DNA of 36,177 bases, taken from contig JABIYX010000019.1 of the NCBI GenBank assembly GCA_018666575.1, forward strand, positions 1 to 36,177, read 5' to 3'. Position numbers and translations under genes: made by a program. Source of the stretch: Methanobacteriota archaeon (GTDB lineage Archaea; Thermoplasmatota; Poseidoniia; Poseidoniales; Poseidoniaceae). Position 1 is the stretch's first letter. Every line of letters starts with the position of its first letter. Positions 7,184-31,200 of the stretch are shown here, piece after piece. Below the pieces are notes generated by a model that was not told the DNA's origin, searched no databases, and saw only the letters and a program-made list of their open reading frames with translations.

Positions 7184-7292
7184 GAAATCCACAAGAATTC
7201 TCTTTTTCTAGCCGCAGCCTTGAAAAGGTGGAGAGTCTAGGACATATTGCCGAATCACATTCACTTGGTTGGCCGCTTTGCGGAAAACCGTT

Positions 7293-7350
7293 GTACTGTA
7301 TCGCCTAATTGGGGCGGAAAAGTACTGTCTTTGAGGAAGCCGAAAGGAGG
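7293..7350 (+). promoter_or_regulatory. Possible structured leader upstream of dnaG: nested stem plus a strong SD-like AAAGGAGG
   Basis: Outer stem GTACT (7293-7297)/AGTAC (7321-7325), inner stem CGCC (7302-7305)/GGCG (7313-7316), followed by AAAGGAGG ending at 7350. Confidence 0.35.
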
Positions 7351-7399
7351 AATTAATCTGGCTCGTAAAAATCATTCAGGAAATAAACAAGGAAACGCG

Positions 7400-8590
7400 A
7401 TGAAATATCTCATCAAAGCTGATATCAAAGTAAACGGAACTGTTCAACGCAAGGACATCATTGGCGCTATTATGGGCCAAACAGAAGGTCTTCTCGGCGA
7501 TGAACTTGAACTTAGAAAATTGCAACGAACTGCTCGTGTCGGGCACGTCGATGTTGAAACGGAAACAAAGGGCGGCAAAGTGCATGGCCTCATTCTCATA
7601 CCAAGTAGTATGGATAACGTTGAAACTGCAATTATTGGATCTGCACTCGAAACAATCGATCGTATTGGTCCATGTCAAGCAAAAATCACTGTCGTAGAAA
7701 TCTCCGACGTTCGTGCAACAAAGCGTACTGCTGTTGTTGACCGTGCAAAGGAACTCTTGCTCCAACTCGTCAATTCTGGCGAGGCTGCTAGCAAGACTGT
7801 TGTCGAAGAAGTTCGCTCGGTCCTAACCGTAGGAACTGCAACAAATTTCCATGGCTTAACATGTGGACCAAATGTTCAGAGTTCCGATTCGCTCATTATT
7901 GTCGAAGGACGTAATGATGTCATCAATCTACTCAACTGTGGTGTGAAGAATGCAATCAGTGCCGATGGCGCTGGAAATATTAAGCAAGAACTCATTGATC
8001 TCGCAAATGGGAAGCAATCCGTTACGCTAGCAATCGATGGAGACCGTGGTGGAGAAATGCTCTTCCGACAACTCCACGCTATCTTGCGTGTTGACTTTGT
8101 CGCGCAAGCACCAACCGGTCAAGAATGGGAACTTCTTCCACAGAAGACCATTACTAAGTCTCTCTCTATGAAAGTCGAAGCTGCCAAGTTTGCAAAGATT
8201 ATGGCGAAGGAAGATAAAGAAGACAAAAAGAAGCACGGCGGCTCAGACAAAGGTGAATGGGCTGAAGAAATGCCTGAAGTCTTCGAGACTGAAGTTGCGC
8301 CAGCTGAAATCCAAGAAATGTTTGACCACCTCGATGGGCTTGGTAAGAACAAGGCCTTGTTTGTCCTATCTGACGGAAGTGTCGGTGAAGAAATGGGTGC
8401 TGCTGGTATTGCTAAGACCGCTTCTGCTACAGAAGGCGTCAAGGTACTCATCATCAACGGACCAGTCAATGAACGCATCCAAGAGATCGCTTCTGAGGCT
8501 TCCATTGAAACTGTTGTAGGAACCAAACCCGGAAAGGGATTCAGCAAAGACGGGGCTGCAAAGTCTTGGTTTTCCGAAATGCACAGATAA
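7400..8590 (+). CDS. dnaG: Archaeal DnaG-type primase
   Basis: MKYLIKADIKVNGTVQRKDIIGAIMGQTEGLLGDELELRKLQ..., Toprim motif SLIIVEGRNDVINLLN and TLAIDGDRGGEM. The track start at TTG 7247 is upstream of the homologous start. Confidence 0.93.
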   Translation: MKYLIKADIKVNGTVQRKDIIGAIMGQTEGLLGDELELRKLQRTARVGHVDVETETKGGKVHGLILIPSSMDNVETAIIGSALETIDRIGPCQAKITVVEISDVRATKRTAVVDRAKELLLQLVNSGEAASKTVVEEVRSVLTVGTATNFHGLTCGPNVQSSDSLIIVEGRNDVINLLNCGVKNAISADGAGNIKQELIDLANGKQSVTLAIDGDRGGEMLFRQLHAILRVDFVAQAPTGQEWELLPQKTITKSLSMKVEAAKFAKIMAKEDKEDKKKHGGSDKGEWAEEMPEVFETEVAPAEIQEMFDHLDGLGKNKALFVLSDGSVGEEMGAAGIAKTASATEGVKVLIINGPVNERIQEIASEASIETVVGTKPGKGFSKDGAAKSWFSEMHR

Positions 8591-15535: not shown

Positions 15536-16054
15536 TTGAGCGGTTGCATTCGTCAATGTGACTGGGATGATTATGACGTGTGTAGAAGCTGTGGAACCGA
15601 CTATTCCCCTCCAAAAACCGAAACTCCTCCAAAGAAACTCAGACCGTTTCACCTTGCCTTTCCAGTAGATGATCTCACCTCAGCAAAGAAATTCTACACC
15701 GAAGTCCTTGGTTGCTCAATCGGTAGGGAAAAGGAAGAGTCGTGTGTTTTCAACTTCTATGGTCATCAAATAGTGGCTCATAAAGTAACTGAAATGCCCG
15801 ATGTTTCGGTTAGTCCCGTTGATGGAAAGGAAATACCAGCATTGCATTTTGGCCTCGTAATGGAATGGGAAGATTGGCATCAATTGAAAAATAAATTAGA
15901 ATCAAATCATACTGAATTCGTAATCGGCCCTTATACACGTTATGAAAATCAACCAGGTTCACAAGCCACGATGTTCGTCAAAGATCCATCTGGAAATCAT
16001 CTGGAATTCAAATCATTCAAAGATGATAACGCTATATTCGACACATCTTGGTAA
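15536..16054 (+). CDS. DUF1289-like Cys motif fused to a VOC (glyoxalase/bleomycin-resistance) domain
   Basis: TTG start; CIRQCDWDDYDVCRSC (C-x3-C-x7-C-x2-C), then HLAFPVDDLTSAKKFYTEVLGCSIG ... FVKDPSGNHLEFKSF. Confidence 0.78.
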   Translation: MSGCIRQCDWDDYDVCRSCGTDYSPPKTETPPKKLRPFHLAFPVDDLTSAKKFYTEVLGCSIGREKEESCVFNFYGHQIVAHKVTEMPDVSVSPVDGKEIPALHFGLVMEWEDWHQLKNKLESNHTEFVIGPYTRYENQPGSQATMFVKDPSGNHLEFKSFKDDNAIFDTSW

Positions 16055-16055
16055 T

Positions 16056-16874
16056 CTATTCGCTCTCTGTGAGTTGCTCCCTAAGCAATTCAATCTGTTG
16101 AGAAAGCTCAGTAATGTTTTGATTAATTCGACGCATTTCGGTGTTTGTTCCTTCTTCTGAATCTGCTTCTAAAGCAACAACTGTGTTCGTAAAAATAGCC
16201 ACGAACATATTCAAGAAAGTAAACGTAGTCATGAAGATGAAGACAACGAAATACGCCCCAACCCACCAGCCTTCCGTTTCAATTAAATTTCGTACAATTC
16301 CATTTGACCATGATTCCAAAGTCATAACTTGAAAGAGAGAAAATAAGGACTTTCCTAAGGACCCAAAATAAGTTGCTCCGTCGGGTCCAGAATTTTGGAA
16401 GAGGACTGTAGAGAGGACTGCAAATACGTAAATCACGACCATGAGTAAAGTGGCAACAGCTGTTAAACCTCGAACAGAATAGAATAGTGATTCTGCAACT
16501 AGTTTTAGTTCGGGAATTCTCGAAACGAGCCTGAACGCTCTTAGAACCCTGAATACTCGGAACACCCGGAATACTCCTGATGAGGGGAATAATGCTATTG
16601 CGACAATGATAAAATCAAACAAGCACCACGGATCTCGGAAGAAGTCAAATCTCATCGCATATATCTTGAACAAAATTTCTGTGACAAAAATCGACATAAA
16701 AAACCAATCGAGGTAAAGAAGAAAATTATTTCCTTTGGAACCCCAATCATATGTTTCAAAACCTATTGAAATTGAACTAGCAAGAATTGCGATGAATACG
16801 ATATTGTTAAATCGCTCAGAATCTACAATTTGACGCACTCTGGAACGTTCGATAGGAATTGTCAAATTTTGCAT
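16056..16874 (-). CDS. BacNav/NaChBac-type voltage-gated cation (sodium) channel
   Basis: Six TM segments; S4 RVFRVFRVLRAFRLVSR with Arg every third residue; pore FQVMTLESWSNGIVR; S6 FTFLNMFVAIFTNTV; C-terminal coiled coil. Confidence 0.9.
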   Translation of the reverse strand: MQNLTIPIERSRVRQIVDSERFNNIVFIAILASSISIGFETYDWGSKGNNFLLYLDWFFMSIFVTEILFKIYAMRFDFFRDPWCLFDFIIVAIALFPSSGVFRVFRVFRVLRAFRLVSRIPELKLVAESLFYSVRGLTAVATLLMVVIYVFAVLSTVLFQNSGPDGATYFGSLGKSLFSLFQVMTLESWSNGIVRNLIETEGWWVGAYFVVFIFMTTFTFLNMFVAIFTNTVVALEADSEEGTNTEMRRINQNITELSQQIELLREQLTESE

Positions 16875-17054
16875 GTCGTTCCTTATGCAAGAAAGAATAT
16901 CAACTCTTTCCCGCCGAATTTAGAAAGATTGCTTTCTTTCAATTACTTGGAAGTGCTCAGCTTAAAGCGACGGTTTATGTGAACATATTTGATTCGTGTA
17001 ACAATTAATAGCATCGTTAGGTTTATTGCCATTAATTATCGAGCGTGAATTAGT

Positions 17055-17690
17055 ATGGAATTCAATGACCTTCACGATTCTGAGAATATCTATCTCTATG
17101 CTGGTGACCTTCCAGAGGGTAATCGAGAGAATGTGCCTTTCATCGGCCTGACATTGAAGCCTGAGGCGGAATGGTGGAATGAATTCCACATTAATCACGA
17201 CGTCACAGCGATGATAGATTTGCCCGATAACAGCGTAGATATATTTCAATCAGAAGATGTTTTTGAACATATTGAATACGATCAGTTAAAATCCACCATC
17301 AACGAGATTTATCGGGTTTTAAAGCCAGGAGGTTTGTTTCGACTTTCCATGCCCGATTATCGATGTGATATTCTCTATGAAAGGTCAAAAAAGGATAAAA
17401 ATGGCAATATTATTTTTGATTGGGGTGGTGGTGGCAAGTACCACAGAAGAAAGAAAAAGGTTGTTGGTGGAGGGCATGTTTGGTTCCCAAAGTACGAAAC
17501 AACTCGGGCTTTATTGGAAAGTACAGAATTTACCGATCTCGATTTTTTGCACTATTACGACACCGATGGAACTCCAGTCCTCAACAAAATAGATTATTCA
17601 AAATGTTTAGTTGGACGGACTCCTGATTTTGATGAACGGGTTTCTTCACCGAGGCGACCGATGTCAATAGTTGTCGATTGTCGTAAATAA
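17055..17690 (+). CDS. SAM-dependent methyltransferase (Methyltransf_11-like)
   Basis: LPDNSVDIFQSEDVFEHIEYDQLKSTINEIYRVLKPGGLFRLSMPDY. Confidence 0.78.
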   Translation: MEFNDLHDSENIYLYAGDLPEGNRENVPFIGLTLKPEAEWWNEFHINHDVTAMIDLPDNSVDIFQSEDVFEHIEYDQLKSTINEIYRVLKPGGLFRLSMPDYRCDILYERSKKDKNGNIIFDWGGGGKYHRRKKKVVGGGHVWFPKYETTRALLESTEFTDLDFLHYYDTDGTPVLNKIDYSKCLVGRTPDFDERVSSPRRPMSIVVDCRK

Positions 17691-18003
17691 TTGCAGTAGA
17701 TGTTGATCAATAGGTACCTGAACTACGTTTTCCTTCCTTGATTACGCCCCCACAAACCAGCGTTTTCCTATGTCTGGACAGTTCGGCCTAGAACTCCTTT
17801 AGAAGATTCTTATCCTTCGATCAATGGGCATCGTTCATCATCAAGTTCTATGACGTGTGTTGCCCAAAGATATCCTGTTCGTGCAACCATTATTCTTTCA
17901 TCGCTTTGCATATTCTCAATAGTTAATATCTCACTGTTCCATTATCAAACTATTGAACACATTCCATCAAAGAATTGAGATATGGAGAGTTGGTGGGCAA
18001 AGT

Positions 18004-19767
18004 ATGGGGCGAGAGTTCAGCATCGCATTGGGCTTTGTTTGTTTGATGTTATTTGCTCCGCTCTCTGGTTGTTTTGGAGGAAATCCTGAAGAACCGCTCT
18101 CATCCGAATCCCTAAATATTTCACCTAATATGTTAACAGGGGGTATTTTCCAAACGGTTACGTTTGAAGCTACTGGCGACCTTTCCGTCTTCATTCCATA
18201 TCTAATAAAGGATAAGTCAACAGGATATGTCATCAATTCCACAGTTCTCAATTTAGAAGATGGTGATTCTGTAGAATTGTCAATATTAGCGCCACCCCGC
18301 ACAAATCGTGGTGTCCTGATGCTCGCTGAATATGGAACAGAGTTGTGGCCTCTTCGCGAAACGACCGAATCATGGGGAACTTGGGTCGATCGTAGTGGAT
18401 TCATGGATTCAATCGGAACAGCTGTTCGCTTTGTTCCATCAGATAATTCGAGTTCCTTTACTTATGAAATTCATGATGGAGGATTTGAAATTCTTCCGTT
18501 TGAATTTATGATACAGCGTGAACAAATGCCAGCATACTCGGAAGACGAGGGTGGAAGGCACTCTACTGGTGTTGTTAACGGCCGAACAACGTACAATTAT
18601 TTGTCGATGTTGTCTGATGAAACAGCAGATCCAACAGATGCTGCTGATGGAGCTCTTGGATTCCTTGATCGGTGGGCGGGACAAGGTAACCTTGCATACG
18701 AAGATGCAGCGTTGCATCTGATTCAAACGCTGGAAAATTTCGGGCTTGAGGTCATCACTCAGCGATTTGTCTATGATTCAATACAAACTGGTGCTCAGAA
18801 TCCTGAAGCGTACAACATTTGCGGATATCGATTTGGAGAAGTAGATCCTGACAAATGGATGGTTTTCGGCGCACACTTTGACATCGCACCTCCAGTAAAT
18901 GCTGTCGCTCTTGACCCGCACATCTTTGGAAGAACGTATGGAACTCGAGTAGGTGCTTACGACAATACTGCTGGAACAAGTATGGTTCTTACAGTCGCCG
19001 AGGCTATGGCAGGGTATTCAACAAGAAATACAATGGTTTTCTGTCTCTGGTCTGGTGAAGAAGGTGGAAAAAGAGGGAGTGACTTCTGGACAGATGAATG
19101 GGTAAAGGAAGAAAATCCAAATGTTGAAGTTACCAATTATGTTAATCTCGATATGGCTGGAGTAAACTGGCCAGGTGGTGGAGGCGCGCCTTGTGGTGAC
19201 GGTCATGGCGGCGGTGAAGGAAACTGCGACCCGCAGCCAGAAGTAGATCCTGATGGCTATCCTAAAGACGATGAAGTATGGCCAATGAGAGTCTATATTG
19301 GCCCAAGTCAAGATCATGATATCATGAATCAACCGGCAATGGTCAATTTGGCCATGTGGATTGGTTCGGATGCAATTGGCGTAGAAGAGCAAATGTCTCC
19401 ATTGATTGGAACTGGTTACGACGCAGAAACCTGGAAGGTCGATGATTGGATGGAGAAAGACCGCCCTGAGATTATCGTATACGAAGATACCACTGCCCGA
19501 TCCGATCATGCTACCTTTCAAGATAACCTTGGAACAGTAACGATGGGTTTTGGCGGCCTTGTTGATGGGTATTGGTGCTACCACCAAACCTGCGATACGC
19601 TCGATGAAATGGAAGACTGGATGGATACTACTGGCAAGGACTACGGGGATGAGCAAAGTGGAAAAAGCAATCTCGTTGATGCACTCGATACAATTACTTG
19701 GTGGGCTACGTATTCATTCTTCCATCTTGATGAGTCGCCGATTACCAATTCATATAACCAAGAATAA
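18004..19767 (+). CDS. Secreted lipoprotein, M28-family zinc (amino)peptidase
   Basis: Lipobox-like signal MGREFSIALGFVCLMLFAPLSGCFGG; M28 ligand pattern VFGAHFD, GAYDNTAGTS, LWSGEEGG, NLDMAG, SDHATF. Confidence 0.85.
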   Translation: MGREFSIALGFVCLMLFAPLSGCFGGNPEEPLSSESLNISPNMLTGGIFQTVTFEATGDLSVFIPYLIKDKSTGYVINSTVLNLEDGDSVELSILAPPRTNRGVLMLAEYGTELWPLRETTESWGTWVDRSGFMDSIGTAVRFVPSDNSSSFTYEIHDGGFEILPFEFMIQREQMPAYSEDEGGRHSTGVVNGRTTYNYLSMLSDETADPTDAADGALGFLDRWAGQGNLAYEDAALHLIQTLENFGLEVITQRFVYDSIQTGAQNPEAYNICGYRFGEVDPDKWMVFGAHFDIAPPVNAVALDPHIFGRTYGTRVGAYDNTAGTSMVLTVAEAMAGYSTRNTMVFCLWSGEEGGKRGSDFWTDEWVKEENPNVEVTNYVNLDMAGVNWPGGGGAPCGDGHGGGEGNCDPQPEVDPDGYPKDDEVWPMRVYIGPSQDHDIMNQPAMVNLAMWIGSDAIGVEEQMSPLIGTGYDAETWKVDDWMEKDRPEIIVYEDTTARSDHATFQDNLGTVTMGFGGLVDGYWCYHQTCDTLDEMEDWMDTTGKDYGDEQSGKSNLVDALDTITWWATYSFFHLDESPITNSYNQE

Positions 19768-20378: not shown

Positions 20379-22415
20379 ATGTGGGAACATCGAGCAGTAT
20401 CGCATAAGCAATTCAAACAAAGTGGTAGAATTAACCCTACCGAGACCTATGTTCAGTTGATGGACAAAGTGGAAGACGCCGTTAAAGAGGCTCAAAAAAT
20501 GCCTTTTGACCATGAAGAATTCCTAAAGTACATTCCTCAACACGGTCCTTGGGAGCCAATTCATGCAACTGATGATACCAAGGCTGATCCTCGTACAAGA
20601 TATATTGGGCCTGGACGCCCTAAACTTCTCAACACGAACTTGATTTTTGGTTCTACATGGATTGAATCTGAGCGATTCAAGTTTGAGCGCCGAATTTCAT
20701 CACTTTCTGATTTCCTGAAGCAGAAGACTGTCGTCAACGCAAACATGTGGACGCCGAAGCAGTTGGTAACAACTCAAACCTTCTTCTTTTGTTCAACCGG
20801 TGACGAAGAACGCTTAGGTGGTTCTCTCCTAACAGGAGAAACTGTCAGTGCTAACCATCCATTCCTTGGTGGCGGCGAAGAGGGGCTTGCAGAGTGGGAG
20901 CCTGTTCTTTGGGGACTCGGACACCGTGGTGTCGTTCCTGATTCAGATCCACAAGACAAGGTCTACTATCCTTCATTGATGCATCGAGGTGTAGCTTTCA
21001 ACAACAGACTCGGATGGATTCGATATTCTCCTGCAGGATTTGGAAAGGATGCTAGTGGATACCTCATGACAAAGCCAACAACTTGGATTCATCCTGCTGT
21101 TGACGGCAACAGAGACACTGCAACCTCGTTCAACCTCCTTGTCAATCTTCCTGACAGAAGAATTTCATTCGGAGAAGAAGGAATTACTGACGTTTTCATG
21201 ACGACTGGGAAGACCTCCCTTTACACAATGATGGGAATGATGAGTTCCTCAACTGTTCGACAAATGTTTGGAGCAGGTTCTGAAATGGTCCCTCTAGAAT
21301 TCCACTGCATCGAGCCTGGACTTGATGAATGGATTAAGAATTCTAATGATGAAGACAAGTATGCTCGATTATTCGAAGTAACCGCCTGTCTCGGATACAT
21401 GCTCACCGATCCTAAGGTTGGATCTCTTGGTGGAGCTGCTAAGCGCCGACGTCTGTTGATGTATCCTCATGATCAAGGGAACCTCTTGACTTGTGTTAAC
21501 GCAAGCCAAGTTGCTGACCACGCATTGAAATCTAATTATGCTGCTACAGTGTTCACAAAGCTCGACCAGGCTGACTTCATGAACAGAGTCGCTCGCCGAT
21601 ACAAGGCATATGCTGACCTAGTTACTGCAAGCGACTTCGCTAAGGGTGCTCGATGGATTAGCCAAGCAATGATTGGAGACGATAAGATCCTCGGTCCAAA
21701 CGTACACTCTATCCTCGCAGTTCGTGGATATGATATTCTCAACCTCGACGAGTACATGGAAAGTTTCAACGACGTTTCTGCATCTCCTGAGCGATTGATT
21801 CGAAGAGTTGTTCAATCCGTTGCAACAAACGCACTCAAGACACTGTATCCAATGGATATGCTCGGAGAGAGTAGTGGGGCACAACCATTCTCCCACATCT
21901 TCGCACCAGCTGGAAGCAATGAACAAGCGCTTGTTTACTACACAGACATTCGTTTCCTCGTCCCAACATCTATCGATAAGTTGCGAATGATTACGGGCGC
22001 ACGTGGTGCAGACCGTGGACGAATGCGTGAAGCGTATGCACAGTTGACTGGTGCAGATCCAATGACTGGACTGTCAATCATTGACCTTTGCCTACCATTC
22101 CTTGCAGATCTTGGAGAAGAATCTTGGCAAACAGGAACCGGTCTTAACGAAGACGAAATTATCGTTGAAGTCACTATGGCCGTTAATCCAGCAATTGTTT
22201 GGAAGAATCTCCTTGAGCCAACAACTCTAGAAATCTTTGACTTGCCTAAGGGCAAGAAGGGAACTGCTGCAAACGTATGGGGTGACATGTTCATGACGAA
22301 CGATGCACTTCATGACAAGATGACAAAAGACGGTCAAGGCCACTATCTCAACCTACTCAGATTGTGTTACAATTGGAGTAACGATAAGGCTCATGACATT
22401 CATGGTCTAAACTAA
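20379..22415 (+). CDS. 678-aa soluble protein of unknown function
   Basis: Long ORF preceded by an SD-like GAGGTGAAGAAG; no TM, no Walker motif, no family I recognise. Confidence 0.8.
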   Translation: MWEHRAVSHKQFKQSGRINPTETYVQLMDKVEDAVKEAQKMPFDHEEFLKYIPQHGPWEPIHATDDTKADPRTRYIGPGRPKLLNTNLIFGSTWIESERFKFERRISSLSDFLKQKTVVNANMWTPKQLVTTQTFFFCSTGDEERLGGSLLTGETVSANHPFLGGGEEGLAEWEPVLWGLGHRGVVPDSDPQDKVYYPSLMHRGVAFNNRLGWIRYSPAGFGKDASGYLMTKPTTWIHPAVDGNRDTATSFNLLVNLPDRRISFGEEGITDVFMTTGKTSLYTMMGMMSSSTVRQMFGAGSEMVPLEFHCIEPGLDEWIKNSNDEDKYARLFEVTACLGYMLTDPKVGSLGGAAKRRRLLMYPHDQGNLLTCVNASQVADHALKSNYAATVFTKLDQADFMNRVARRYKAYADLVTASDFAKGARWISQAMIGDDKILGPNVHSILAVRGYDILNLDEYMESFNDVSASPERLIRRVVQSVATNALKTLYPMDMLGESSGAQPFSHIFAPAGSNEQALVYYTDIRFLVPTSIDKLRMITGARGADRGRMREAYAQLTGADPMTGLSIIDLCLPFLADLGEESWQTGTGLNEDEIIVEVTMAVNPAIVWKNLLEPTTLEIFDLPKGKKGTAANVWGDMFMTNDALHDKMTKDGQGHYLNLLRLCYNWSNDKAHDIHGLN

Positions 22416-24131: not shown

Positions 24132-24860
24132 TTAATTCTTGATAATGTAGGATACTCTTTGCTTACCTTTACCTTTCGATTTCTTCCCGGTAAATTCGAT
24201 TTCACCAATCTCGGATATGTTTCTAACGTGCGTTCCAGCACACGGACACATATCTTGCTGATCTCCAATCGTTACAACTCTAAGATCGTTGATAAACGCT
24301 GGTAAAAGATCCATATTTGTACGTTCTTGCGGCATTATTGCATTGATTTCATCTCGAGTCATTTGAGAATCTGTGACTTCGAGAGATTGAAGAATTTTTT
24401 CATTCACTTCCGTTTGTAATTGTAACAACATATCTTCAGTGAATTGAATAGGATGGAAATCAATTCTGGAACGATCGGTGTGGATTTGGTTACCAACTGT
24501 TCGAACTCCATCAAATAATTCGTATGCAATACCACTGACAAGATGTTGGGCTGTGTGCATTTTCATGTGCGCATATCGACGTTCAAAATCAATTTTCCCA
24601 GTTATCTCCTCGCCTACTTCCAGTCCGTAGACAGCATCAACCGTGTGCTCAATAATATCTCTACCACGAACTTCTGTAACGTTCATCTCGCCGTTTGGGC
24701 TATTGAGAACGCCTAAATCCCAGTTTTGACCACCTCCAAGTGGATAGAAAAGGGTTTGATCAAGAGAGATTTTATTTTCTTCTACCTTTGTAACAGTAGC
24801 AGTGAATTCTTTCTCATAAGCCGCATCTATTGATGATAAGTACAGTCGCTCTGTTGTCAT
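24132..24860 (-). CDS. alaX: Alanyl-tRNA editing protein AlaX
   Basis: FYPLGGGQNWD, HMKMHTAQHLVSG (HxxxH), RIDFHP, CPCAGTHVRNISEIG (CxxxH). Confidence 0.9.
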   Translation of the reverse strand: MTTERLYLSSIDAAYEKEFTATVTKVEENKISLDQTLFYPLGGGQNWDLGVLNSPNGEMNVTEVRGRDIIEHTVDAVYGLEVGEEITGKIDFERRYAHMKMHTAQHLVSGIAYELFDGVRTVGNQIHTDRSRIDFHPIQFTEDMLLQLQTEVNEKILQSLEVTDSQMTRDEINAIMPQERTNMDLLPAFINDLRVVTIGDQQDMCPCAGTHVRNISEIGEIEFTGKKSKGKGKQRVSYIIKN

Positions 24861-25564
24861 ATATCCGTCTCCATCAGTTTGTTCCATAAATTCATACCAT
24901 TCAAAAATCGTTGTTCGCATGACCACATGTTCTGATCAACAGGAAGATAAGTTGACATTATCTCTAGAATTTTGAAATTAGATGATTCTTTTTGCTCACT
25001 ATACCAGGACTCAATCAATCCATCATAGCGTTCAAGCTTTAATTGGGCGTCAGAGAAGTTTTCTACTTCTGTATCGATATGAAGAAACCCTGTAGCTGGC
25101 TTCCTTTCTACATCATAGCGAATACTTACTTCGGTGAGATTATGTTGTTTAGCCCAGGGAACCCAAGTATCCTTTGTTGTATCAATAACCATATCGAACA
25201 TGTGTTCTCCTTCCATTTGACTGGCGCCCTTCAAGTGAACACTAAATCCGCTTTTTGATTTTACTGTTGATACGATTCTCGCTTTGTTAAGAAGGATGAC
25301 TCCTTGTTTGGCAAGTTGAATATTCATTGATTTCATAATCCATTCGTGCCTAAATCCCGTGTCTTTTCCTTCGAATCCCTGTTCAGTTGCAAAATTTAAT
25401 GGAATATTGTCACGATTATGCAGAAGGCTTGGCCATACATTGGGTAGACCAAATTCTGTGTTATGATCAGCAACGAATACTTTATTCCCTTCTTTCAAAG
25501 CTGAATATACGCATCCATATGCGATAAGACCAGCACCAACGATGAGAACTCTAACTGGAATCAC
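24857..25564 (-). CDS. FAD/NAD(P)-binding oxidoreductase-like protein
   Basis: N-terminal Rossmann VRVLIVGAGLIAYGCVYSALKEGNKVFVADH; GTG start overlapping the ferredoxin stop; 4-bp overlap with alaX. Confidence 0.65.
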   Translation of the reverse strand: MIPVRVLIVGAGLIAYGCVYSALKEGNKVFVADHNTEFGLPNVWPSLLHNRDNIPLNFATEQGFEGKDTGFRHEWIMKSMNIQLAKQGVILLNKARIVSTVKSKSGFSVHLKGASQMEGEHMFDMVIDTTKDTWVPWAKQHNLTEVSIRYDVERKPATGFLHIDTEVENFSDAQLKLERYDGLIESWYSEQKESSNFKILEIMSTYLPVDQNMWSCEQRFLNGMNLWNKLMETDI

Positions 25565-27409: not shown

Positions 27410-27753
27410 TTCATTCAGCCGAAGAGGTTGAATATACCGACCTAAAGGGACTGTTGATACTCATGGCGGCAAAAGCACCAGGTGGAAAGAAACGCCCACG
27501 AAGGAAACGTAAGTTGAGACTCAGTCTTCGTCAAAGTAAAATCAAGAAAGCTGATAGTTATACAGACAGTCTTGGTTGGTCGACAGATGTCGGTCGAACA
27601 TTGGAAGATGCACCAAAAAAAGCAGAACCAGAGACAATCTCAATCCAATGTGATATGTGTGGTTCGATGTTAAAAATTCGAAAACCTACAAAAGCACGCT
27701 ACTCTGTAACTTGTTCATATCCAGAATGTGGAAACGTCATGTCTTTTGATTAA
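27406..27753 (+). CDS. Small basic protein with C-terminal zinc ribbon
   Basis: GGKKRPRRKRKLRLSLRQSKIKK plus CDMCGS...CSYPECGNVMSFD. Overlaps the nuclease stop by 4 bp; alternative start 27463. Confidence 0.7.
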   Translation: MIHSAEEVEYTDLKGLLILMAAKAPGGKKRPRRKRKLRLSLRQSKIKKADSYTDSLGWSTDVGRTLEDAPKKAEPETISIQCDMCGSMLKIRKPTKARYSVTCSYPECGNVMSFD

Positions 27754-27754
27754 G

Positions 27755-28585
27755 ATGAAACGAGTCTTTTTTGTTCTCTTTGTATTCATACTCCCCTGTC
27801 TACAGGGCTGTTTAGGGGCTTCTGAGGAAGTTTCGGATCAAACAATACGTCTCGCAACCACGACCTCAATGCGAGATTCAGGGCTGTTAGCAGAACTGTT
27901 GCCAGCTTTTACGGCTGAAACTGGAATTGAAGTTGATGTCATCGCAGTTGGATCAGGTGCGGCTATGAATCTTGCAAAAACAAATGATGTGGACATACTT
28001 ATCACCCACTCTCCTGCGAATGAAATAGAGTTCGTTGAGGATGGTTATGCCATAAACAGGACCACATTTGCCTGGAATCGATTTGTCCTTATTGGACCAA
28101 ATCAATTATCTGGAAATTTAACAGAATCAATGTCTTCCCTCGTTCTTGAAAATAAGTGCTTTATCTCAAGAGGAGATTCCTCTGGGACACATATCAAAGA
28201 ACAAGATGTGTGGCGAAATGTCGCCCTTGTCAGCAATCTATCATTTATCAACAATGAATTAGGATATCATCCAGAATGGGAGGGATACCAGTCAATTGGA
28301 CAAGGAATGGGGGCTGCAATTACAATTGCAAATGAGTTAGAATGCTGGACTTTATCAGATAAAGGAACTGCATTATTTCGTTCCAATAATATCGAACTAA
28401 TGATACAAGAATTTGAATCACCTGAATTAGTAAACCCTTACTCTGTTCTCCTCTTAGACAATGATAAATTATCAGAGACTACCCTTTTCAGAGATTTCTT
28501 ACTCAACAGTGCTGATTTAATCAACAACTACACCGTTTCGAATCAAACTTTGTTTGAAAGCGGAATTCCCTTGAATTCTGTGTGA
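27755..28585 (+). CDS. tupA: Tungstate ABC transporter substrate-binding lipoprotein TupA-like
   Basis: Lipoprotein signal MKRVFFVLFVFILPCLQGCLGAS; TupA-type TTTSMRDSGLLAELLPAFTAETGIEVDVIAVGSGAAMNLA. Confidence 0.87.
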   Translation: MKRVFFVLFVFILPCLQGCLGASEEVSDQTIRLATTTSMRDSGLLAELLPAFTAETGIEVDVIAVGSGAAMNLAKTNDVDILITHSPANEIEFVEDGYAINRTTFAWNRFVLIGPNQLSGNLTESMSSLVLENKCFISRGDSSGTHIKEQDVWRNVALVSNLSFINNELGYHPEWEGYQSIGQGMGAAITIANELECWTLSDKGTALFRSNNIELMIQEFESPELVNPYSVLLLDNDKLSETTLFRDFLLNSADLINNYTVSNQTLFESGIPLNSV

Positions 28586-28587
28586 AT

Positions 28588-29916
28588 TCAACCGATCCAT
28601 TTCCCAGACTTTATTTGCTGAGCAACCTTACTTTCATCATCAATTTGTTTACCTTGATGGATAAATATCGTCCGTGTTGCTAGTCGCTTCGCCTGTAGGA
28701 CATTATGGGTTGCGAAAAGAACACAGCCCCCACGCTGTTTGAATTTGAGAACTTCTTTCTCAATCCTTTCGATCGATAGACCATCAAGCTCAGATGTAAA
28801 TTCATCAAGAATCAAAATTTTACGATTCATAGCCAAAGCCCTCAAGAACACGAGTCTCTGTTTCTCTCCTCCAGACAATGTATCATTCCGTTGCCTCTCT
28901 TTCTCTTCCAAACCACATATTGCCGCCAATTTCTTACCAGCATCTGGTAAATGGTTGTGTATTATTATTGGTAATTGCAATTCCATAGCTACAGTATCCA
29001 TCACAAGTGTTGGTTGCTGTGCAACATATGCAATGTCATGACCAATCCCCAAATCACTTCCATCAAGACCACAAATTCTTCTCAAGAGGGTAGATTTACC
29101 CGATCCAGACTCACCCATCAAGGCAATAATTTCCCCTTGCCTAAGTTCTAGTGAATAGGAATCTAAAATTTTAATTCCATCTTTTTCTACATTTAAATTT
29201 CCAAGAGTTATAGTGAAGTCATCAAACGATTCATTATCACGATTATCTTCTCCAAAACTACCACTTCCAAAGAAATGAACTCGTTGTAATAATTGTATGG
29301 ATAACGCAACAAGTAGCGACAAAACTAGAAGAACACCACCGAGTTGTAACGCCGTGTCCATTTCTCCAATAGAGGTTTCAAGAACCACACTTGTCGTGAG
29401 GACTCGAGTTTTTCCAGCTATATTTCCACCAACCATCAAAACAGCACCGACCTCTGCAATAGCGCGCCCAAAACCCAACAAAATAGCGTTAACGATGCCT
29501 TTGCGAGCACAGTACATTTCAAGCATAATTCGCTTACTCCTTTTCACATTCATCACCCGAAAAACATCTCGCTTATCCTCTGAAACGCGTTCTAAAGCAC
29601 CCCACGCAACTCCTAGAATGAGCGGAAAAATAAGAAGAGTCTGTGCAAAAATCATACCTTCAATTGTGAACAACCAGTTGAGATCTGATAGCAAACCATC
29701 TTTTGAAAGAGCAAGATAAACCAAGACTCCAACGACTACTGGTGGTAATCCATACAGAGCTTGAACAATGACACGTAGGATTTCTTTCCCACGCCATTTT
29801 GTATTTGCCAAGACAAGAGCGAGGGCAAGAGCAAAAAGAGTTGCGATAAGTGTAGCAGTCCCACTTGTGACCACGGTTCGTACGACCACATCCCATAGAC
29901 TTGAAGTAGAGACCAC
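28588..29916 (-). CDS. Fused tungstate ABC transporter permease-ATPase (TupB-TupC in one polypeptide)
   Basis: N-terminal permease (LPPVVVGVLVYLALS, GFGRAIAEVGAVLMVGGNI), C-terminal ATPase (MGESGSGKSTLLRRI, LSGGEKQRLVFLRALAMNRKILILDE). GTG start. Confidence 0.88.
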   Translation of the reverse strand: MVSTSSLWDVVVRTVVTSGTATLIATLFALALALVLANTKWRGKEILRVIVQALYGLPPVVVGVLVYLALSKDGLLSDLNWLFTIEGMIFAQTLLIFPLILGVAWGALERVSEDKRDVFRVMNVKRSKRIMLEMYCARKGIVNAILLGFGRAIAEVGAVLMVGGNIAGKTRVLTTSVVLETSIGEMDTALQLGGVLLVLSLLVALSIQLLQRVHFFGSGSFGEDNRDNESFDDFTITLGNLNVEKDGIKILDSYSLELRQGEIIALMGESGSGKSTLLRRICGLDGSDLGIGHDIAYVAQQPTLVMDTVAMELQLPIIIHNHLPDAGKKLAAICGLEEKERQRNDTLSGGEKQRLVFLRALAMNRKILILDEFTSELDGLSIERIEKEVLKFKQRGGCVLFATHNVLQAKRLATRTIFIHQGKQIDDESKVAQQIKSGKWIG

Positions 29917-29994
29917 GTCATCCCCAAGCGAGACAAACCTTTGAGGTTGGTGAACTGACCCACAGCCTGAAGCACATCCATAGGAGGCCCAAAA

Positions 29995-31200
29995 ATGTCT
30001 GAAACACCATACTACATTTCACTCGAAGAAGCGATTAACATTGCACACAAGTTTCCGCTTAACACTGAAATAGAACAAGTATCCTTGGATGAAGCCCATG
30101 GCCGAATACTTGCGGCGGATTTATCTTCAAAGGTTAATGATCCCCCCTTTGATAATTCAGCCATGGATGGTTTTGCAGTACGTTTCAACGACACCAATAT
30201 AGCGCCAACAACTCTCTCAATCATAGCAACATCACAGGCTGCAGCTTCAGAAGATTCGATTTCGATTTCAATCGGCGAAGCAGTTCAAATTATGACTGGA
30301 GCCCCATTACCAAATGGAGCAGATGCAATTATCCCAATTGAAGCATGTACTATTGATGGGGATTTAGTCACGTTGAATCAACCTTCTAAACCAAATTTTA
30401 TTCGTCGCTGTGGTGAGAATATCAAGGAAGGAGTTATTGGTTTGAAAGAAGGAAGTCATCTTTCTCCACAATCGATTTCAATGTGTGCTACAATGGGATA
30501 CGATCAAATTCCAGTTGTGAAGAAACTCAAAATTGGAATAATATCTACTGGTGATGAACTGAAATCTCCCGGAGAAACTCTATCATTTGGGGAAATATAT
30601 GAATCCAATTCATACGGTCTTTCAGGCCTTGTAAAGGCTCTTGGCCATACGCCTATTCGATACCCATCCGTAGTCGATTCGTTGGATGATTTACGAAGAC
30701 AATTCGATCAAGCCTCCTCTGAGTGCGATCTCTTCCTTACTTCTGGCGGTGTTTCTATGGGCGAGTGGGACTTTGTTCGAAAACTCATGGAAGAGGAGGG
30801 TGATGTCGCTTTCTGGAGAGTACGTATCCGCCCAGGCTCACCCCCACTCTTCGGCCATTGGAATGAAACTCCAATGTTCGGCCTTCCAGGAAACCCAGTT
30901 AGTAGCCATGTTGTTTTCCGTATGCTTGTAACCCCTTACCTCAGAGATTCACTTCGAACCTCTTTCCCAATCGATCGCATTGTTCATGCCAAATTATTGA
31001 CCGACGTACGTTCAACAAACGACTGCCTGACCCTTCGAAGAGTAACACTCCTCTCCACCAAAGAAGGGTTCCTTGCTGAACAACCGAAACATCAAGGTTC
31101 GGGAAATATCGATAGTTTATCTTCTGCAGATGGTCTTACCTTACTTCAACCAGGCCAATCCGGTAAGACGGGGGAATGGATTGAAGTGCTCTTGCTCTGA
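29995..31200 (+). CDS. moeA: Molybdopterin molybdenumtransferase MoeA
   Basis: PPFDNSAMDGFAVR, IMTGAPLPNGADAIIPIE, IGIISTGDEL, LTSGGVSMGEWDFV, GLPGNPVSSHV. Confidence 0.93.
   Translation: MSETPYYISLEEAINIAHKFPLNTEIEQVSLDEAHGRILAADLSSKVNDPPFDNSAMDGFAVRFNDTNIAPTTLSIIATSQAAASEDSISISIGEAVQIMTGAPLPNGADAIIPIEACTIDGDLVTLNQPSKPNFIRRCGENIKEGVIGLKEGSHLSPQSISMCATMGYDQIPVVKKLKIGIISTGDELKSPGETLSFGEIYESNSYGLSGLVKALGHTPIRYPSVVDSLDDLRRQFDQASSECDLFLTSGGVSMGEWDFVRKLMEEEGDVAFWRVRIRPGSPPLFGHWNETPMFGLPGNPVSSHVVFRMLVTPYLRDSLRTSFPIDRIVHAKLLTDVRSTNDCLTLRRVTLLSTKEGFLAEQPKHQGSGNIDSLSSADGLTLLQPGQSGKTGEWIEVLLL

Follow-up and report, generated by a model that had tools for sequence, protein, structure and literature searches.

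The locus examined here raises the question of whether a marine archaeon owns a voltage-gated sodium channel of the bacterial type and, if so, what such a channel would conduct and do for the cell. Prokaryotic voltage-gated sodium channels serve as structural models for nerve and muscle channels, and to our knowledge those studied so far are bacterial. The window, by which we mean the whole stretch of 36,177 nucleotides that was analysed, is all of contig 9 of a MAG of 1.87 Mb in 202 contigs, estimated to be 89% complete with 0.2% contamination. The first-pass annotation had proposed that positions 16056-16874 encode a complete single-domain BacNav (NaChBac-like) channel, archaeal in ownership and possibly acquired horizontally. 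The reading frame found there starts with an ATG at 16874, ends with a stop at 16056-16058 on the minus strand and has no internal stops. Its parts are the following, with the basis of each assignment in brackets.

16056..16874, minus strand: BacNav-type channel gene, 272 aa, one domain (Pfam Ion_trans, NavMs alignment)
16518..16817, minus strand: voltage-sensor domain S1-S4, residues 20-119 (model helices; conserved F63/E66 in S2 and D87 in S3)
16518..16568, minus strand: S4 arginines R103-R119 (sequence and archaeal alignment)
16302..16322, minus strand: selectivity filter TLESWSN, residues 185-191 (sequence; position 7 is Asn, not Met)
16164..16268, minus strand: S6 pore-lining helix, residues ~203-237 (model helix; conserved N222)
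16071..16136, minus strand: C-terminal coiled coil, residues 247-268 (4-3 hydrophobic repeat, model helix, alignment with the NavMs C-terminus)

The protein is of the BacNav type by sequence, tree and predicted fold. Pfam Ion_trans matches it at 2.2e-44 (151.9 bits, cut-off 25). The best one-domain match in the PDB is NavMs (7.6e-53, 182 bits), with an alignment that spans residues 12-270 (259 residues) and includes the coil; NavAb is next among the one-domain matches (~1e-48, ~168 bits). T-type calcium channels rank above NavMs in this search via their four summed domains, the best single domain reaching 83-90 bits versus 182 for NavMs. No NCBIfam model matched the channel protein. An AlphaFold2 monomer of moderate confidence (mean pLDDT 79, pTM 0.47) contains the expected helices, including a continuous helix at 203-271 in which S6 runs on into the coil, and Foldseek placed NavMs and NavAb/CavAb entries at the top for this model (probability 1.00).

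All motifs quoted in the first-pass annotation are present. The S4 segment, GVFRVFRVFRVLRAFRLVSRIPELK, holds six arginines: R103, R106, R109, R112 and R115 at the 3-residue spacing described earlier, and R119 in addition. R106, R109, R112 and R115 are invariant across the archaeal homologues and match the canonical arginines, while the other two are lineage-specific, R103 being an extra outer arginine found only in the close group of the window's channel and R119 being present throughout archaeal clade A. The charge-transfer centre (F63 and E66 in S2, D87 in S3) is invariant in 18 archaeal homologues, as are the F218-F224 block and N222 of S6, and the archaeal alignment shows the filter Glu and Trp to be invariant as well. 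The pore segment FQVMTLESWSNG carries TLESWSNG at residues 185-192, and the C-terminal segment MRRINQNITELSQQIELLREQLTE (residues 247-270) has the 4-3 register M247/I250/I254/L257/I261/L264/L268. The protein therefore has the features by which BacNavs are recognized: a single 6TM domain of ~270 aa with an S1-S4 sensor and an S5-P-S6 pore, at least four S4 arginines at 3-residue spacing together with the charge-transfer centre, and a helical coil C-terminal to S6. Its filter, TLESWSNG, conforms to TLESWxxG, the motif that defines the BacNav filter (PMC4225499).

In trees built without CatSper, EukCat or TRP sequences, the protein clusters with BacNavs and not with Cav or Kv channels. Grouping with K+ or TRP channels had been named in advance as an outcome that would overturn the assignment, and it did not occur in these trees. 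The general nature of the Ion_trans fold and a weak PKD_channel match (2.1e-7) are what a K+ or TRP-like channel reading can draw on. The filter, however, is not of the GYG type, the best sequence and fold matches are NavMs and NavAb, and the Kv-like Poseidoniales proteins with the filter TLTSTGYGD group apart on a very long branch, so that this reading is extremely improbable. Those Kv-like proteins form a separate family within Poseidoniales, with a C-terminal tail that contains CxxC-type cysteine pairs.

Whether the gene belongs to the archaeon was assessed from its site and from its distribution. The genes that mark its setting are listed below.

15536..16054, plus strand: VOC/glyoxalase-family gene, one flank of the presence/absence site (synteny)
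17953..19767, plus strand: M28 peptidase gene, the other flank of the presence/absence site (synteny)
7247-8590: DnaG primase gene (NCBIfam DnaG, above cut-off)
24132-24926: AlaX gene (AlaXM match at 1.3e-65, below the NCBIfam curated cut-off)

The earlier suggestion of an archaeal setting had cited the last two of these as neighbours; the primase is present, whereas AlaX has a strong AlaXM match that falls below the curated threshold. Within the genus the gene order TPR, redoxin, VOC, channel, M28 peptidase and 678-aa protein is kept. Four congeneric genomes, including one that is 93% complete, lack the channel and carry VOC immediately next to M28. In one of these empty sites an 11-base stretch just behind the VOC stop is identical to the last codons of the channel, which tentatively suggests that the channel was deleted there. 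The channels of other genera occupy different sites, which are genus-specific where several copies could be compared, and among the neighbourhoods compared no partner gene or operon is common across genera.

Several other observations were made in this region. A methyltransferase-like gene at 17055-17690 (plus strand), between the channel and M28, occurs only in the window and is absent from the site in the other genomes compared. A short inverted repeat, GAAAGAGTTGATATTCTTTC, lies at 16891-16910, 16 bases ahead of the channel start codon. A second species carries an almost identical copy just ahead of its channel, although the gene itself has diverged strongly at synonymous positions; the repeat is possibly a promoter or operator. 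The 678-aa protein (20379-22415, plus strand) has no Pfam or NCBIfam match. Its identity across the genus, 91-98%, clearly exceeds that of most neighbours, and judging from this conservation it appears to be strongly constrained. Farther along, at 27728-31200, a tungstate/molybdate-type substrate-binding protein, a permease-ATPase fusion and moeA are grouped together. In the fusion (28588-29916) a TupB-like permease and an ABC ATPase form a single polypeptide; these are more often separate chains.

Orthologues named in Candidatus Poseidoniales/Euryarchaeota MAGs are 80-94% identical to the window's channel, and the gene was found in 9 of the 24 genomes of its genus. Across the order, 39 of 319 genomes yield a match at 1e-10 or below; all except two belong to the window's family, and one of the two exceptions is a short fragment. 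A draw of 293 genomes across the phylum gave no match stronger than the weak Kv-like level outside that family; the clade-B copy in the order's second family surfaced only in the fuller survey of 319 genomes. By identity to the window's channel the archaeal copies fall into two groups, A (68-94%) and B (~42-47%), and a clade-B member was also found in a genome that consists of one 2.06-Mb contig. One clade-A channel, 80% identical, sits at a different site in a 55% complete MAG of another genus, the other copies observed in that genus being clade B; transfer between genera or a binning error would both be possible explanations for it.

These data also bear on whether the gene could be a bacterial contaminant or the product of a chimeric MAG, the second outcome that had been named as fatal to the proposal. 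A MAG split into 202 contigs and a family that is common among bacteria would be compatible with such an error. Against it stand the shared gene order of independent archaeal MAGs in the genus, the sister genomes with both flanks and an empty site, the membership of all archaeal copies in one clade, the clade-B copy in the one-contig genome and the low identity (only ~33-44%) of the bacterial relatives found. Contamination was rejected on the grounds of synteny, empty sites and the one-contig genome, and we give it next to no credence. The gene is instead native to the archaeal lineage. Its third-position base composition (0.37) lies within that of its neighbours (0.35-0.41), and dN/dS against the nearest orthologues is ~0.02, a rough value since dS is near saturation; the gene is under strong purifying selection. 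From the synteny, the empty sites, the composition, the dN/dS and the lack of a common partner, we conclude that it is a long-resident, constrained, solitary and dispensable archaeal gene. A search of IMG/VR with the archaeal profile gave no relative, and phage records yielded a single distant match at 30% identity.

The relationship of the archaeal channels to the known groups was examined using a tree of 77 sequences (archaeal A and B, Proteobacteria, Bacteroidota, NavAb, NavMs, NaChBac and Cav3 domain II), rebuilt without the very long rows that had disturbed the first tree. The archaeal copies form one clade with support of 100/97 among the one-domain Nav channels and away from the Cav outgroup. 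The tree joins this clade weakly (90/55) with NaChBac and the TLEDWTD channels, and the penalty for grouping it instead with the NavAb-like set is only 0.22 log units (p-AU 0.434); the bootstrap is not fully settled, and the very long outgroup branch makes the rooting unreliable. As to subgroup, the tree is compatible with either placement of the clade, with NavAb and NavMs or apart from them, and the filter has Asn where the NavAb-like TLESWSM has Met at position 7.

A question of subgroup, separate from the BacNav identity itself, is whether these are archaeal AnclNavs of the CavMr/NavPp kind and not members of the canonical BacNav groups. A 2020 paper describes AnclNavs "even in archaea" and defines them by filters richer in acidic residues (PMC7041947), and the weak join to NaChBac and the TLEDWTD channels points the same way. 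The filter here, however, is TLESWSN and not the acidic TLEDWTD or TLEGWVD, and placement with NavAb-like channels is nearly free of cost; we consider an AnclNav assignment quite unlikely.

The earlier suggestion of horizontal acquisition is plausible from the distribution. BacNavs are common in Pseudomonadota (116 of 349 genomes; 61 of 190 in the class to which one relative belongs), which makes a bacterial origin the simplest reading, although neither a donor nor a direction finds support in the tree (AU p 0.434). As an observation on the bacterial side, plasmids of two Rhodobacterales, Ruegeria conchae and Qingshengfaniella alkalisoli, carry a TLESWSM BacNav within a type VI secretion cluster that reads tssH, hypothetical, channel, sheath, and Leisingera plasmids carry similar channels.

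The feature that sets the archaeal filter apart is position 7, N191 in the window's channel and the equivalent of NavAb Met181. Wherever the archaeal filter is intact this residue is Asn, apart from two copies that have His (TLESWSH); it is Met in the sampled bacterial TLESWS/TLESWA channels (Proteobacteria, Bacteroidota) and Ser in NaChBac. A 2026 study found that NavAb M181A weakens monovalent selectivity and divalent exclusion, with PCa/PNa of 0.36-0.47, and that CavMr, CaChBac and CavAb have Asp at the equivalent site (PMC12919392). Looser divalent exclusion is therefore plausible here, position 7 being the very site at which M181A raises Ca2+ permeability. This control of divalent exclusion, the PCa/PNa of 0.308 of NavPp, an AnclNav with a TLEDWTD filter (PMC7041947), and the invariably polar archaeal residue could be taken to indicate a mixed Na+/Ca2+ voltage-gated channel that serves mainly calcium entry or signalling. 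We regard this as quite unlikely, since the TLESW core is retained and the additional acidic residues that mark Ca2+-selective filters are missing, and NaChBac is sodium-selective in spite of its polar Ser (PMC4225499). The clade-wide Asn may loosen Ca2+ exclusion relative to NavAb and still leave the protein short of being a calcium channel. Plausibly the channel prefers Na+ and lets Ca2+ pass somewhat more readily; a plain Na+ channel would also be compatible.

Taken together, the gene very probably encodes a subunit of a homotetrameric, voltage-gated, sodium-permeable BacNav channel native to Marine Group II (MGII; Poseidoniales), in which the tetramer, the gating and the Na+ preference are what we infer. 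Depolarisation would move the S4 arginines outward past the F63/E66/D87 charge-transfer centre, and the S4-S5 linker would then open the S6 gate. Na+ would enter down its gradient via the high-field site at Glu187 of the TLESWSN filter, and the C-terminal coil would hold the tetramer together. In alkaliphilic Bacillus such channels return Na+ inward for pH homeostasis and motility (PMC4225499 and references there). MGII is predicted to use a Na+-driven A1AO ATP synthase (PMC6336850), and gated Na+ entry would therefore need to open sparingly. The proposed role is tightly gated Na+ entry that would provide fast Na+ and charge balance in a marine cell that uses sodium, a function that some species would do without.

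A role in motility was considered and set aside. The archaellum motor is driven by ATP, and since archaellin is nearly universal (138 of the 146 genomes of the family), its presence cannot discriminate a link between channel and archaellum. Chemotaxis genes are also not identifiable in MGII (PMC6461757), which leaves the motility role without support.

A bolder proposal is that the Poseidoniales channels are a fourth major prokaryotic Nav branch beside the NavAb-like, Bacillus and AnclNav branches, in which the position-7 Asn creates a native Na+ channel that excludes divalent ions less strictly and serves electrical or calcium signalling in an archaeon; we hold this to be unlikely. With its canonical TLESWS core the archaeal clade offers an independent natural variation series for filter selectivity, in which Asn naturally replaces Met at the position of NavAb 181, and it raises the question of what use an abundant uncultured ocean archaeon, thought to run a sodium-driven ATP synthase, makes of a gated sodium leak.

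AnclNavs have already been reported from archaea (PMC7041947), so the mere occurrence of one-domain Nav/Cav relatives there is no novelty. In the open-access literature we found neither TLESWSN nor Poseidoniales together with a sodium channel, and no report of an archaeal clade with a TLESWS filter; voltage-gated sodium channels are also not a topic in the main text of two principal MGII genome papers (PMC6461757, PMC6336850).

Among known channels, NavMs (Magnetococcus, PDB 5hvx/6sxg) shares the single domain, the helix plan, the FQVMTLESWS-GIVR pore, the S4 arginines and the C-terminal coil, at 34-39% identity in fold alignments, but has Met at position 7 in place of Asn and lacks R103 and R119. 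NavAb (Arcobacter, PDB 3rvy) has the same layout and TLESWS filter, and differs in Met181 and in its position outside the archaeal clade. NaChBac (Bacillus halodurans, PDB 6vwx) shares the layout, the TLESW filter, a polar position 7 and a C-terminal helix; its filter, however, reads TLESWAS instead of TLESWSN, and the tree puts it with the TLEDWTD channels, weakly linked to the archaeal clade. The AnclNavs (CavMr, NavPp; PMC7041947) are likewise prokaryotic one-domain channels of bacteria and archaea with a polar or acidic position 7, but have the acidic filters TLEGWVD and TLEDWTD, the archaeal AnclNavs being compared here by the description in that paper. Domain II of T-type Cav3 channels (Cav3.2/3.3) shows clear per-domain homology, yet belongs to a four-domain eukaryotic chain with the filter TQEDWN, on a long branch away from all prokaryotic channels. 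Set beside these systems, the window's channel is a real, archaeal BacNav with a private filter variant, and nothing observed demands a new category.
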